From the IMG/VR virus record IMGVR_UViG_3300050821_000855, positions 1 to 43,148 of that record: DNA of 43,148 nucleotides, one strand, 5' to 3'. Below the pieces are notes generated by a model, which was not told the DNA's origin, did not search any database, and saw only the letters and a program-made list of their open reading frames with translations. Positions 1 to 43,148 of the stretch are shown here, piece after piece (the stretch's first letter is position 1; each line of letters starts with the position of its first letter). Source of the DNA: a virus. The position numbers and the translations under genes were made by a program.

Positions 1-60
1 ATCATCTCGCAAAATATCTGCAAGGCGCTCTGGGTAGGGCGAAAGCAGCAGAACCTTCAC
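1..60 (-). CDS. Possible formyltransferase-like protein, N-terminal fragment
   Basis: Only the first 20 codons are inside the window; the gene runs off the left edge. A GTG start at 60 overlaps the TGA stop of the upstream acetyltransferase gene (GTGA junction), so the two are probably translationally coupled. The visible peptide begins MKVLLLSPYPERL, a hydrophobic beta-strand followed by SPYPER. I associate this opening with formyltransferase-fold sugar or nucleotide-sugar enzymes, but 20 residues cannot prove it. A Rossmann-type opening of another enzyme is the main alternative. The pairing with a GNAT enzyme would suit amino-sugar acylation. Confidence 0.5.
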   Translation of the reverse strand, partial: MKVLLLSPYPERLADILRDD

Positions 61-575
61 TTGGTTTTCCCATAGTTAATGAGATCGCAGGGCTTACCTT
101 CGAATAGATAATGCTCAGGAATAACCCCTTCGACATTCATCTTGGCTTTGGTGGCAAGCAACCGCATCGGCTCATTAACGGCCATACATCCAGCCTCAAC
201 CTTGCGGATTCCATCTGCGAATAGAAACTCCATCACCGCTGACCATGCTGCCAAACCATGGCCATAGCCCTTCTCTTCCCCAAGCAAGATGCCCATATTG
301 GCAACTTTGTTGGGCTGGTCTATGTAGGCTGTGATGGTGCCGATGGCTCGCAGTTCCGGGACTGGCGGTGGGCCAAATTCAATGAGCCAGATGTGCGAGG
401 TCTTAGGAAAGGTCCAAAGGTATTCGCGCTGCGTCTCCATCGTATGCTTACGATGGCGCTGCTCGGAATACTTCATGAGTTCTTTATCATTGAGCCAATC
501 AACGTGTTGCTGACGCAGGAGGCGCTGCTGATATGGCATCAAGACCAGATTGAACGTACTTAACGGAGGGGTCAT
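57..575 (-). CDS. GNAT-family N-acetyltransferase (RimJ/PseH-like)
   Basis: The 172-residue protein has the GNAT layout. An N-terminal segment containing WLND is followed by a central strand near residues 75-85 (AIGTITAYID). An acetyl-CoA loop region with EKGYGHGLAAW lies near 100-110, and the C-terminal part contains KVEAGCMAVNEPM and EGVIPEHYLFEGK. The order and the C-terminal 'guidance' segment resemble RimJ-type and PseH-type enzymes, which acetylate protein N-termini or amino-sugar nucleotides. The ATG at 575 overlaps the upstream stop (ATGA), and a GGAGGG sequence sits just upstream. The gene is third in a leftward four-gene operon, followed by a possible formyltransferase. The substrate cannot be read from sequence; surface-sugar modification is an inference from context. 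Confidence 0.8.
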   Translation of the reverse strand: MTPPLSTFNLVLMPYQQRLLRQQHVDWLNDKELMKYSEQRHRKHTMETQREYLWTFPKTSHIWLIEFGPPPVPELRAIGTITAYIDQPNKVANMGILLGEEKGYGHGLAAWSAVMEFLFADGIRKVEAGCMAVNEPMRLLATKAKMNVEGVIPEHYLFEGKPCDLINYGKTK

Positions 576-8770: not shown

Positions 8771-8879
8771 CGTAAAATATTAATTATGTAATTCCTTGGT
8801 AAATCCTACCCGTCACGCGCCGTGATGGTTCACCTGACTCAAGCTGCGACGCTCGTAGCAACAGTCGATGGAGCCATAC
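8771..8879. other. Intergenic gap with hairpin, upstream of HNH gene 1
   Basis: The 109-base gap starts AT-rich (8773-8800). It then holds a compact stem-loop at 8811-8827: a 7-bp stem (one G-T wobble) closing a CGC triloop. There is no T-run after it, so it is not a standard intrinsic terminator. TTGACG at 8767 with AT-rich sequence 16-17 bases downstream could be a weak promoter for the homing endonuclease. Such gaps around free-standing homing endonucleases often mark the inserted segment. Confidence 0.3.
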
Positions 8880-9371
8880 ATGGCCAATCGAAACGTAGAT
8901 AAGGAGAGGGCATTGAGCCAAGAGGCTCTGCGCTCCTATTTGTGTTACGATGCGGAAACCGGCGAGTTTATTCGTCTTACTAGCTTCCATCAAAGTCCTA
9001 TCGGGTCTGTGGCCGGTACTGTGTTGGCTACAGGTTATAGGGTGATTCGCGCTTGCGGTTCTCGATTCTTGGCTCATCGTCTCGCGTGGTTTTACGTTTA
9101 TGGCGAATGGCCAATCGAACTAGATCACATCAATCGAGACAAAGACGATAATCGCCTTATTAATCTACGGGAGGTTTCTCGTAGCGGCAATATGGTGAAC
9201 TCTGGCGGCTGGTCTAACAGTACGCTGGGTATCAAAAATATCAGTCGAAAACGCAAGAGTTTTCACGTCCAAGTTTTTAGGGACGGTGAAACAATCTATC
9301 GTGAGACATTCGCCTGCTTAGGTCAGGCTGTGAAAGCTAGAGACGCCGCAACAGGAGGCAACATTGTCTAA
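8880..9371 (+). CDS. HNH homing endonuclease 1 with AP2-like DNA-binding tail
   Basis: The 163-residue protein has an HNH nuclease core: AHRLAWFYVYGEWP (65-78), then LDHINRDKDDNRLINLREVS (81-100), giving H66, D82-H83 and N91/N95. The C-terminal 50 residues (TLGIKNISRKRKSFHVQVF, then ACLGQAVKARDAA) match an AP2/ERF-like DNA-binding domain, a common partner of phage HNH enzymes. The ATG at 8880 is preferred to 8868 because GGAG lies 6 bases upstream of it. The last codons contain the AGGAGG ribosome-binding site of the following virion gene, and the two overlap by 8 bases. It probably cleaves a nearby head gene of related phages lacking the insertion. Confidence 0.9.
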   Translation: MANRNVDKERALSQEALRSYLCYDAETGEFIRLTSFHQSPIGSVAGTVLATGYRVIRACGSRFLAHRLAWFYVYGEWPIELDHINRDKDDNRLINLREVSRSGNMVNSGGWSNSTLGIKNISRKRKSFHVQVFRDGETIYRETFACLGQAVKARDAATGGNIV

Positions 9372-41540: not shown

Positions 41541-41977
41541 GCGTCGGGCATCGCCACAAGTACGTCCACTCCCTCGTTACCCAACGAGAAACTCGACGCT
41601 TGTTGGCCACGCCAGAGATTAAGGAGTTTCTGGCGAAGCCATTCAGAGTTGATTACTCCCATACGATACCATTGACTGGTGGTAGTAACAGGAATGGAAG
41701 AACGTACTATGAAGATCGCGATGTTCCTGTTGGTTTACGAAAATTTATTCTTTGGCACGAAAGAACAGAAAAGGCTTTTAGGTCCGTTTTAGGGATGAAT
41801 TACAGCCGCGCGCATACGTTAGCAACATGCGCAGAGAGAGTTTTAGTCGAAGCCGCCGGTAGGAACTGGGAGCAGTACAAGCGGGAGGTCGCCCAAGTAG
41901 TTCGACATAACGAAATCGAACCAAAGGTCGGCCTCCCACCTGACTTAGACAGAGTTCCAATGAAGGAATCTGGCTAG
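41537..41977 (+). CDS. HExxE-motif protein, possible metallopeptidase-like family
   Basis: The 146-residue protein starts by TTG overlapping the previous stop (TTGA); longer in-frame starts lie inside the upstream gene. The core reads TYYEDRDVPVGLRKFILWHERTEKAF, with H74-E75-x-x-E78, then NYSRAHTLATCAERV (89-103) and, near the end, PPDLDRVP. I know this order (DRD-P, HExxE, Y-x-x-AH-x-x-A, E) from a small family in phages and alphaproteobacteria without proven function. The HExxE and AH positions are consistent with a metal site as in minigluzincin-type peptidases. Its TAG stop is formed by the first unit of the pentanucleotide tract. Confidence 0.65.
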   Translation: MSVGHRHKYVHSLVTQRETRRLLATPEIKEFLAKPFRVDYSHTIPLTGGSNRNGRTYYEDRDVPVGLRKFILWHERTEKAFRSVLGMNYSRAHTLATCAERVLVEAAGRNWEQYKREVAQVVRHNEIEPKVGLPPDLDRVPMKESG

Positions 41978-42258
41978 GCTACGCTCGGCTTCGCCGCACT
42001 CGACTGTGCTGCACTAAACTTCGCTTGGCTGCACTCGGCTGCGCTTAGCTCTGCCTGCATTGCTAAGCTTCGCTCAACTATACTAGACTTTCTAAGCTAG
42101 GCTGGGCCTGCTTCGCTCAACTTTGCTAGTCTACACTACGCTGGACAGCGCCGAACTGGGCACCGCTGGGCTACGCCTGCTTTGCTTCGCTTCACCACGC
42201 TGAACTATGCTCTACTCCGCTTGGCTGTACTCCGCTTAGCCTGCTACGCTGTCGCTCC
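41973..42258. repeat. Degenerate pentanucleotide tract, (R)CTNN x 58
   Basis: From 41973 the plus strand reads GCT-AG, GCT-AC, GCT-CG, GCT-TC and so on. By hand count it contains 58 units over 286 bases. Every unit has C at position 2. Forty units begin G, 16 A and 2 T, and 48 have T at position 3, while positions 4-5 vary freely. Spacing is exactly 5 bases except five 4-base units, four of them GCCT, and one 6-base unit near the right end. It lies between convergent genes, and both TAG stops (41975-41977 plus; 42246-42244 minus) fall on its units. It has no good open frame and is not a simple microsatellite. Confidence 0.9.
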
Positions 42259-42699
42259 TGCATCGTCTCCTCTGTCTGAACGACGATTCCTTTTCTTGGT
42301 TTTGATGCCAACCTTATCAACCTCCTCCCAGACTCTCGCCAGTTCAGTAAGCACGCTGAATCTCAGTTTCAGTCGATTCAATTCAGCCAAAGCATCGGCC
42401 AATAGAACCTCCCGCAATTCCTTTGTACTCATGACTGACTTAAGATTCCGATAGCCGCCGCCGGTAGCGCGGTCGATGCTAAGCGACACTTCCTGCCTAA
42501 CATCCTCTTCATTCACGATAGAAAGGAGTACGTTTCTTACCTGCCAAATACGGTACTGATGGCCTGCTTTCTTATCGTCCCATTCGAGGTGGGCATACAG
42601 AGCAGATTTGGGGTGTTTTGCTGCCCACTCCACGGCCTCTTCGGCGTGAATGAGGCCATCATCGCCCCGAAGGGCTTCTAGCTCACTCTGAATCGTCAT
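42244..42699 (-). CDS. Hypothetical phage protein, helical
   Basis: The 151-residue protein starts at ATG 42699 with AGGAG 7 bases upstream. The N-terminal part (HAEEAVEWAAKHPKSALYAH then LEWDDKKAGHQYRIWQVRN) is a conserved-looking pattern that I recall from unannotated phage early proteins. The C-terminal half is charged and helical (KELREVLLADALAELNRLKL) with a basic tail (KTKKRNRRSDRGDD). It is probably a regulator or DNA/RNA-associated protein, but there is no recognisable domain. It converges on the late operon, and its TAG stop lies inside the pentanucleotide tract. Confidence 0.7.
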   Translation of the reverse strand: MTIQSELEALRGDDGLIHAEEAVEWAAKHPKSALYAHLEWDDKKAGHQYRIWQVRNVLLSIVNEEDVRQEVSLSIDRATGGGYRNLKSVMSTKELREVLLADALAELNRLKLRFSVLTELARVWEEVDKVGIKTKKRNRRSDRGDDAGATA

Positions 42700-42714: not shown

Positions 42715-42936
42715 TCAGTAATCCACTTGGATGGTGTAGTTAGATGGTACTTTATCAACAAGTTTGACTTCTGGCGGCAGAGATAGGTATCCCTCGCATC
42801 TTTTACCTGGATGTACCCAGCAAAGATCAACGATGTAATTGCCGTGCTTGTCATAGCCTGCGAGTGGGCGCCACTTGCCCCATGTGGAAGGATGATTCAC
42901 ATATTCAGGAAACGCCCTCCTTTTCCATGTCCACAA
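42715..42936 (-). CDS. Hypothetical small protein with uncertain start
   Basis: The 73-residue protein is rich in Trp, Tyr, Gly and Pro (STWGKWRPLAGYDKHGNYIV, DLCWVHPGKRCEGYLSLPPE), with two cysteines 8 residues apart. It may be a small beta protein. The TTG at 42936 overlaps the upstream 23-residue frame. A GTG at 42900 would give 61 residues but lies far (about 14 bases) from the strong AAGGAGG on this strand at about 42922-42916. The gene is followed after 15 bases by the 151-residue gene. Function unknown. Confidence 0.55.
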   Translation of the reverse strand: MWTWKRRAFPEYVNHPSTWGKWRPLAGYDKHGNYIVDLCWVHPGKRCEGYLSLPPEVKLVDKVPSNYTIQVDY

Positions 42937-42976
42937 AGTTGATGTGGTCGCCTTTCCATTTCGCAGTTCTGGCCAT
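42905..42976 (-). CDS. Possible 23-residue peptide gene
   Basis: On the minus strand GAGGA is followed after 6 bases by ATG (42976). The frame encodes MARTAKWKGDHINF and a charged end, stopping at TGA 42907-42905. It contains the AAGGAGG that may serve the following gene. A competing 62-codon frame over 42897-43085 has unnatural composition. The reading is supported by ribosome-binding site and composition only. Confidence 0.35.
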   Translation of the reverse strand: MARTAKWKGDHINFVDMEKEGVS

Positions 42977-43088
42977 AGCCATTCCTCGACTGAGGAATAG
43001 TCACAGGTATGCTTTGTTGGTCCGGGGTGGGTTCGATAGTGGCTAGAAGCGGCAAAAGCTGGGAAGGTGAGATATGGCGATACATTGG

Positions 43089-43148
43089 TAGGAATTACCC
43101 TTACTGGGGTAGGAATTACCCTTACTGGGGTAGGAATTACCCTTACTG
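43089..43148. repeat. 21-bp tandem repeat, 2.9 copies, at the right edge
   Basis: The unit TAGGAATTACCCTTACTGGGG occurs at 43089-43109 and 43110-43130, then in part at 43131-43148, where the window ends. Copies are identical. The unit has GGTA...TACC symmetry around GGAAT when the preceding G is counted. A 21-bp period is two DNA turns, as in iterons and arrays of regulator sites. The number of copies beyond the edge is unknown. A collapsed or truncated assembly at the repeat is also possible. Confidence 0.85.

Follow-up and report, generated by a model that had tools for sequence, protein, structure and literature searches.

A pentanucleotide tract beside an accessory gene in a viral contig is very probably an AGY-type VIPR guide array

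A periodic tract near the right end of a viral contig is very probably a VIPR guide array accompanied by its accessory gene, of an AGY type with staggered layout and four or five putative vrRNAs on the minus strand, as judged by sequence comparison with related loci. The contig (IMG/VR record IMGVR_UViG_3300050821_000855, positions 1 to 43,148) was analyzed over its full length of 43,148 nucleotides and is referred to as the window. VIPR (Viral Interference Programmable Repeat) is described in a bioRxiv 2026 preprint (PMC13142463), in the parts cited here, as a phage system composed of the RAMP protein Vipr, accessory vap genes (vap1–6) and vrRNAs, and is proposed there as an ancestor of CRISPR RAMP systems. 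According to the same parts of this source, vrRNAs consist of 9–16 pentamers in which GGY “or a related consensus” alternates with a variable dinucleotide (NN), and the NNs base-pair with DNA such that a single base between them stays unpaired, usually the third base of a codon. The types studied there are those of Escherichia phage SUSP1 and of a Pseudomonas fulva prophage, an invariable 3′ tail after the repeats being described for both clades; staggered arrays exist, and array architecture differs by type (PMC13142463). The window contains the following features:

41972–42256, minus strand: putative vrRNA-type guide array, ~58 AGYNN units cut into blocks by 4-nt units; same layout in loci L034, L085, L123, L028 and L102
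42246–42256, minus strand: remnant or start of a first block, overlapping the vap 3′ end
42178–42241, minus strand: predicted guide A, GGC + 12 NN (TA GG AC CA GG AG AT TC GT GA GA AA) + AGCA
42109–42177, minus strand: predicted guide B, 13 NN (GT CC GG CC TC GC CC GT GT CT AA TG GA) + AGCA
42056–42108, minus strand: predicted guide C, with an internal short unit AGAA, ending in TGCA
41972–42055, minus strand: predicted guide D, 16 NN (AG TA GC CG GC CA GA TT GC AC CG GC GA CG GT CT), without closing junction
42239–42245, minus strand: junction AGCA-GGC
42175–42181, minus strand: junction AGCA-GGC
42106–42112, minus strand: junction AGCA-GGC
42053–42059, minus strand: junction TGCA-GGC
42244–42699, minus strand: putative vap-type VIPR accessory gene, 151 aa, phrog_15946 family, TAG stop inside the array
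41546–41977, plus strand: convergent gene, start uncertain (ORF from 41285), HExxEK...Y..AH..AT.AE family
41798–41845, plus strand: guide D match site in the convergent gene, 24/32 bases by 1-nt skip, the skipped base being the third codon base

The sequence-only reading had located a periodic tract of ~58 units here, and both its position and its units were confirmed by autocorrelation and by a dynamic-programming parse. At lags 5, 10 and 15, the autocorrelation of positions 41972–42256 amounts to 0.49, 0.49 and 0.44, compared with 0.267 ± 0.03 in 2000 dinucleotide shuffles (z = 7.4, 7.2 and 5.9), so that the lag-5 comparison proposed by that reading comes out clearly above shuffled sequence. 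The tract is unique in the 43 kb window, where the best 200-base stretch elsewhere reaches 0.355, and it holds 13 overlapping matches to (RCTNN)x5 with 0.01 expected. The periodicity recognized in the plus-strand RCTNN units thus stands; the informative strand, overlooked at the time, is the minus strand, on which the same units read AGYNN. In this orientation, pentamer position 2 is G in 55 of 56 units, position 1 is A in 46 and position 3 is C or T in 52, with free NNs. Ten distinct NNs were counted among 13 units and again 10 among 17 units, which does not conform to the near-identical units of a simple microsatellite. Both convergent ORFs indeed take their TAG stops from the tract (41975–41977 on the plus and 42244–42246 on the minus strand), as had been pointed out. 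A functional RNA was among the roles suggested earlier, yet the tract is not a stable structured RNA, because neither strand folds better than shuffled sequence (z = +0.67 and −0.85). An Rfam search returned only a sub-threshold U6 match, and no sigma-70 promoter was found.

The 4-base units noted earlier as GCCT on the plus strand are present, but their role as regularly placed block boundaries had escaped attention: on the minus strand they form junctions of the type [AT]GCA-GGC, four of which were found with 0.075 expected from mononucleotide shuffles. These junctions, the sole constant element between blocks, delimit blocks of 12, 13, about 9–10 and 16–17 pentamers, roughly fitting the 9–16 repeats of a guide. 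Neither an invariable 3′ tail of the SUSP1 vrRNA type nor CRISPR-type identical repeats with unique spacers were seen in the window array. Because guide C contains an irregular unit and guide D lacks a closing junction, some of the array may be in decay.

The gene directly upstream of the array on the minus strand links the tract to VIPR. Its predicted protein shares 54% identity with that encoded at L034:2633–3055 and 47% with that of the L085 gene, both of which adjoin vipr and AGY arrays. The accessory family corresponds to phrog_15946, Vipr to phrog_4652 and SUSP1 Vap1 to phrog_5926. When viral contigs were searched with the accessory protein family alone, ignoring repeats, a vipr homologue was found nearby in 55 of 57 viral loci, the two exceptions (L144 and L166) showing no vipr within the fetched stretch. 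The Vipr profile of this vap-linked group, built with SUSP1 left out, matches PDB entry 36pp, “SUSP1 Vipr protein” (E = 8.4e-17). Two vap homologues (L160:5902–6960 and L165:5902–6957) carry a C-terminal Trans_reg_C DNA-binding (winged-helix) domain, and these fusions are in line with a DNA-binding accessory protein. An alignment of the vap family yielded no match in genome_contigs, and a PDB fold search with the vap structure model (pLDDT 93.6) gave no significant match.

No vipr was identified in the window by HMM search at maximum sensitivity, at any threshold tried, with a model that does detect vipr in the relatives; a search of the window with the phrog model was also negative, the genomes searched containing no positive control. 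Upstream of vap, the contig extends for another 449 bp and ends within a 21-bp repeat present in three perfect copies (43087–43148). This triplicate is probably the point at which assembly stopped, and vipr is presumably located immediately outside the contig. The window genome is probably incomplete, because its annotatable genes are mostly those for packaging, structure and lysis. Between vap and the edge, a tryptophan-rich ORF (42724–43148, minus strand) stays open to the contig end, and no relatives of it were found in viral contigs. Elsewhere, the window holds a GNAT acetyltransferase-like gene at its left end (57–575, minus strand) and, among the head genes, an HNH homing-endonuclease-like gene (8868–9371, plus strand) with 37% identity to a phage SUSP1 gene.

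In the viral contigs scanned, (AGYNN)x9 occurs in at least 119 stretches, some uniform and others with varied NNs. Among the matches listed, vipr is present at 37 of 52 varied-NN loci vs 2 of 67 uniform loci (Fisher 2.6e-16), which supports the earlier proposal that the pattern is selected rather than a slipped microsatellite. Clustering of neighboring proteins by blastp gave, among the matches listed, one family spread over 35 loci that includes a SUSP1 gene, identified as vipr by its position between GGYNN tracts. In the AGY arrays of the five loci listed above with the same layout, blocks close with AGCA before the next GGC, and in the L101 array with AACT. The GGY arrays of L125, L129, L130, L142 and L151 share the GGC-start/4-nt-end layout with GGCA as closing unit, and that of L140 combines a GGCA end with GTT starts. 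The phrog_15946 family thus accompanies both AGY and GGY arrays, the window belonging to the AGY kind. Its closest relatives by accessory gene, L034 (IMG/VR 3300005618_000121) and L085/L122 (L122 being 3300043358_000015), resemble it in vap (54% and 47% identity), AGY units and AGCAAAGCAGGC junctions. Unlike the window, they contain vipr, and their array lies between vipr and vap or flanks vap on both sides. The convergent gene layout noted by the sequence-only reading is not what is conserved; the conserved arrangement is an array on the same strand as the accessory gene and directly next to it, and normally to vipr. An assembly error, which that reading had named as a way to overturn it, is unlikely, because the same architecture occurs in independent metagenome contigs.

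Other array forms were encountered in the same material. Very long unbroken AGYNN tracts with varied NNs, of up to 58 units (L032:8740–9029, L091, L070, L055 and L086), may represent another array layout, one that lacks 4-nt junctions; a vipr-family match is present in the fetched DNA of L032, L070, L086 and L091, and none in that of L055. Six loci (L014, L045, L079, L036, L053 and L097) harbor AGYNN guide arrays that adjoin vipr and Vap1 and have a period of ~110–125 nt; this suggests that their guides, in contrast to those of staggered arrays, have a tail. Homologues of vipr are also annotated as hypothetical in BK059895.1 (31490–32086) and in ~30 Mycobacterium and Gordonia phage records, with identities of 56% in Cyanophage Cy-LDV1 and ~32% in mycobacteriophages.

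Guide D could be decoded. Aligned to the neighboring convergent gene in codon phase, it matches 24 of 32 bases when one nucleotide is skipped between dinucleotides, compared with 19, 19 and 20 for skips of 0, 2 and 3; of 2000 order-shuffled versions of guide D, 1 attains 24 somewhere in the window. Members of the family to which this gene belongs (HExxEK...Y..AH..AT.AE) are carried by Mesorhizobium plasmids and phages. Across 24 distinct genes, guide D scores a mean of 18.3/32 at the homologous codons vs 9.1 ± 1.9 for shuffled order (0/5000 shuffles as high), and omission of the site in the window leaves a mean of 18.1/32 for the 23 other homologues, again with 0/5000. In 13 of the 24 loci, no other place exceeds the guide D score of the homologous site. 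For the 24 viral contigs with homologues, the search patterns lay outside the guide D site, and the sequence of the window itself served as confirmation; the query that found the four plasmid homologues contained the decoded residues. The decoded peptide reads [SR]YARA[HQ][DE][FL]ATRA[DE]RVL, and an Arg in it is also Arg in several relatives, and Cys in the phage's own copy. No exact guide D target was found in viral_contigs. Collectively, these sequence matches indicate that guide D is apparently aimed at relatives of the neighboring gene in rival phages or plasmids.

Searches with the remaining guides gave no target, by collection scans for guides A and B and within the fetched DNA for guide C. 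Exact-pattern scans with 8–9 dinucleotides, using guides A, B and D in viral_contigs and guide A in genome_contigs, returned 3, 11, 8, 17 and 1 matches, none spanning a whole guide, and the best guide A match (20/24 in L200) is at chance level for that search size. Guide B or D matches that read GPSAPVVL or ATRA[DE]RVL were rejected, the ORFs being unrelated or doubtful. In a target test of all guides across the fetched loci, skip 1 showed no more than a slight excess, and likewise upon repetition with junction-parsed guides. In other loci, an L071 guide matches an ORF of L009 (22/24) and an L036 guide matches the vipr gene of L087 (19/22), both in frame by 1-nt skip; these pairs are possible VIPR-against-VIPR targets.

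How far the window array is still functional bears on an unlikely alternative, in which it is orphaned or decaying, vipr having been lost or Vipr being supplied by a co-infecting phage or prophage, with guides inactive or active only in trans. Such an array would fit the lack of vipr in the window, the irregular unit of guide C, the absent last junction and the truncated first block. Against this, the contig breaks off 449 bp upstream of vap, on the side that usually holds vipr, inside a 21-bp triplicate of the kind expected at an assembly break; vap itself is intact and conserved; and guide D still fits its target family far above chance.

Two further explanations dispense with guides altogether. 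A DNA element, either an array of protein-binding sites or a terminator acting in both directions between the converging operons, had been proposed together with a packaging or replication start, and no sign of any of these was found. The position of the tract between convergent genes with both stops inside speaks for such an element, which we nevertheless regard as very improbable: the NNs are free and vary from locus to locus, whereas next to vipr and vap genes the AGY/GGY frame and the junctions persist, neither strand folds beyond shuffles, and the NNs of guide D decode a conserved protein motif, unexpected of a binding-site array. That the tract is a degenerate microsatellite, grown by slippage and blurred by drift, is hardly credible. 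About half of the AGYNN stretches among the viral-contig matches listed are near-uniform, a point in its favor, but the NN entropy of the window tract is 3.1–3.2 bits, and vipr goes with the varied tracts and not the uniform ones among these matches.

Returning to the VIPR guide array as the favored explanation, the window shares with the system of PMC13142463, as far as the cited parts describe it, tandem pentanucleotides that are encoded by a phage, combine a fixed trinucleotide with a variable NN and form blocks of roughly 9–16 units, as well as a 1-nt-skip code that fits guide D, the sole guide with a target; in relatives of the window, Vipr (phrog_4652) and an accessory gene are likewise encoded next to the array. 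It differs from the SUSP1 and P. fulva types presented there in its frame, which is AGY instead of GGY. Compared with SUSP1, its blocks abut via a 4-nt unit, no separate tail being visible, its accessory protein belongs to phrog_15946 rather than to phrog_5926 (SUSP1 Vap1), and vipr is absent from its contig. Class 1 CRISPR arrays are likewise guide arrays read by RAMP proteins, whereas the window array has neither identical long repeats nor contiguous spacers, and no cas genes were seen in the window.

In the proposed mechanism, a minus-strand transcript, probably shared with the upstream vap (42244–42699), would carry the array. Each predicted guide starts with GGC, continues with about 10–16 NNs in the AGY frame and finishes with a 4-nt end (AGCA or TGCA) abutting the next guide. 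By analogy with the types covered in the cited parts of PMC13142463, Vipr, a RAMP protein, would coat the guide RNA and present the NNs, base pairing of these with DNA would leave a single base unpaired between successive dinucleotides, and the Vipr-guide complex would silence the matched gene. In rival phages or plasmids, guide D would thereby silence homologues of the neighboring HExxEK-family gene.

The phage's own gene differs from guide D at 6 of 16 dinucleotides, two of the differences being synonymous first-base changes (Arg CGN to AGA and Leu CTN to TTA). This divergence may protect the own copy; the differences may reflect escape from self-targeting, or plain divergence from a distant target. 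We put forward only tentatively, though as a serious candidate, that the array targets relatives of its own adjacent gene as an RNA-guided weapon in the AGY frame, the own copy escaping through first and second codon bases that serve as a self/non-self mark. If true, a first- or second-base change would be the only silent escape from a code that ignores the wobble base. More broadly, the window array, recognized in raw sequence with no prior reference to VIPR, lends independent support at the sequence level to the 1-nt-skip code beyond the GGY clades studied by experiment, adds AGY as a second fixed frame inside one accessory-gene family, and supplies a simple junction rule for splitting staggered arrays into guides. 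With one guide decoded and its target family identified, both the code and self-avoidance become directly testable.
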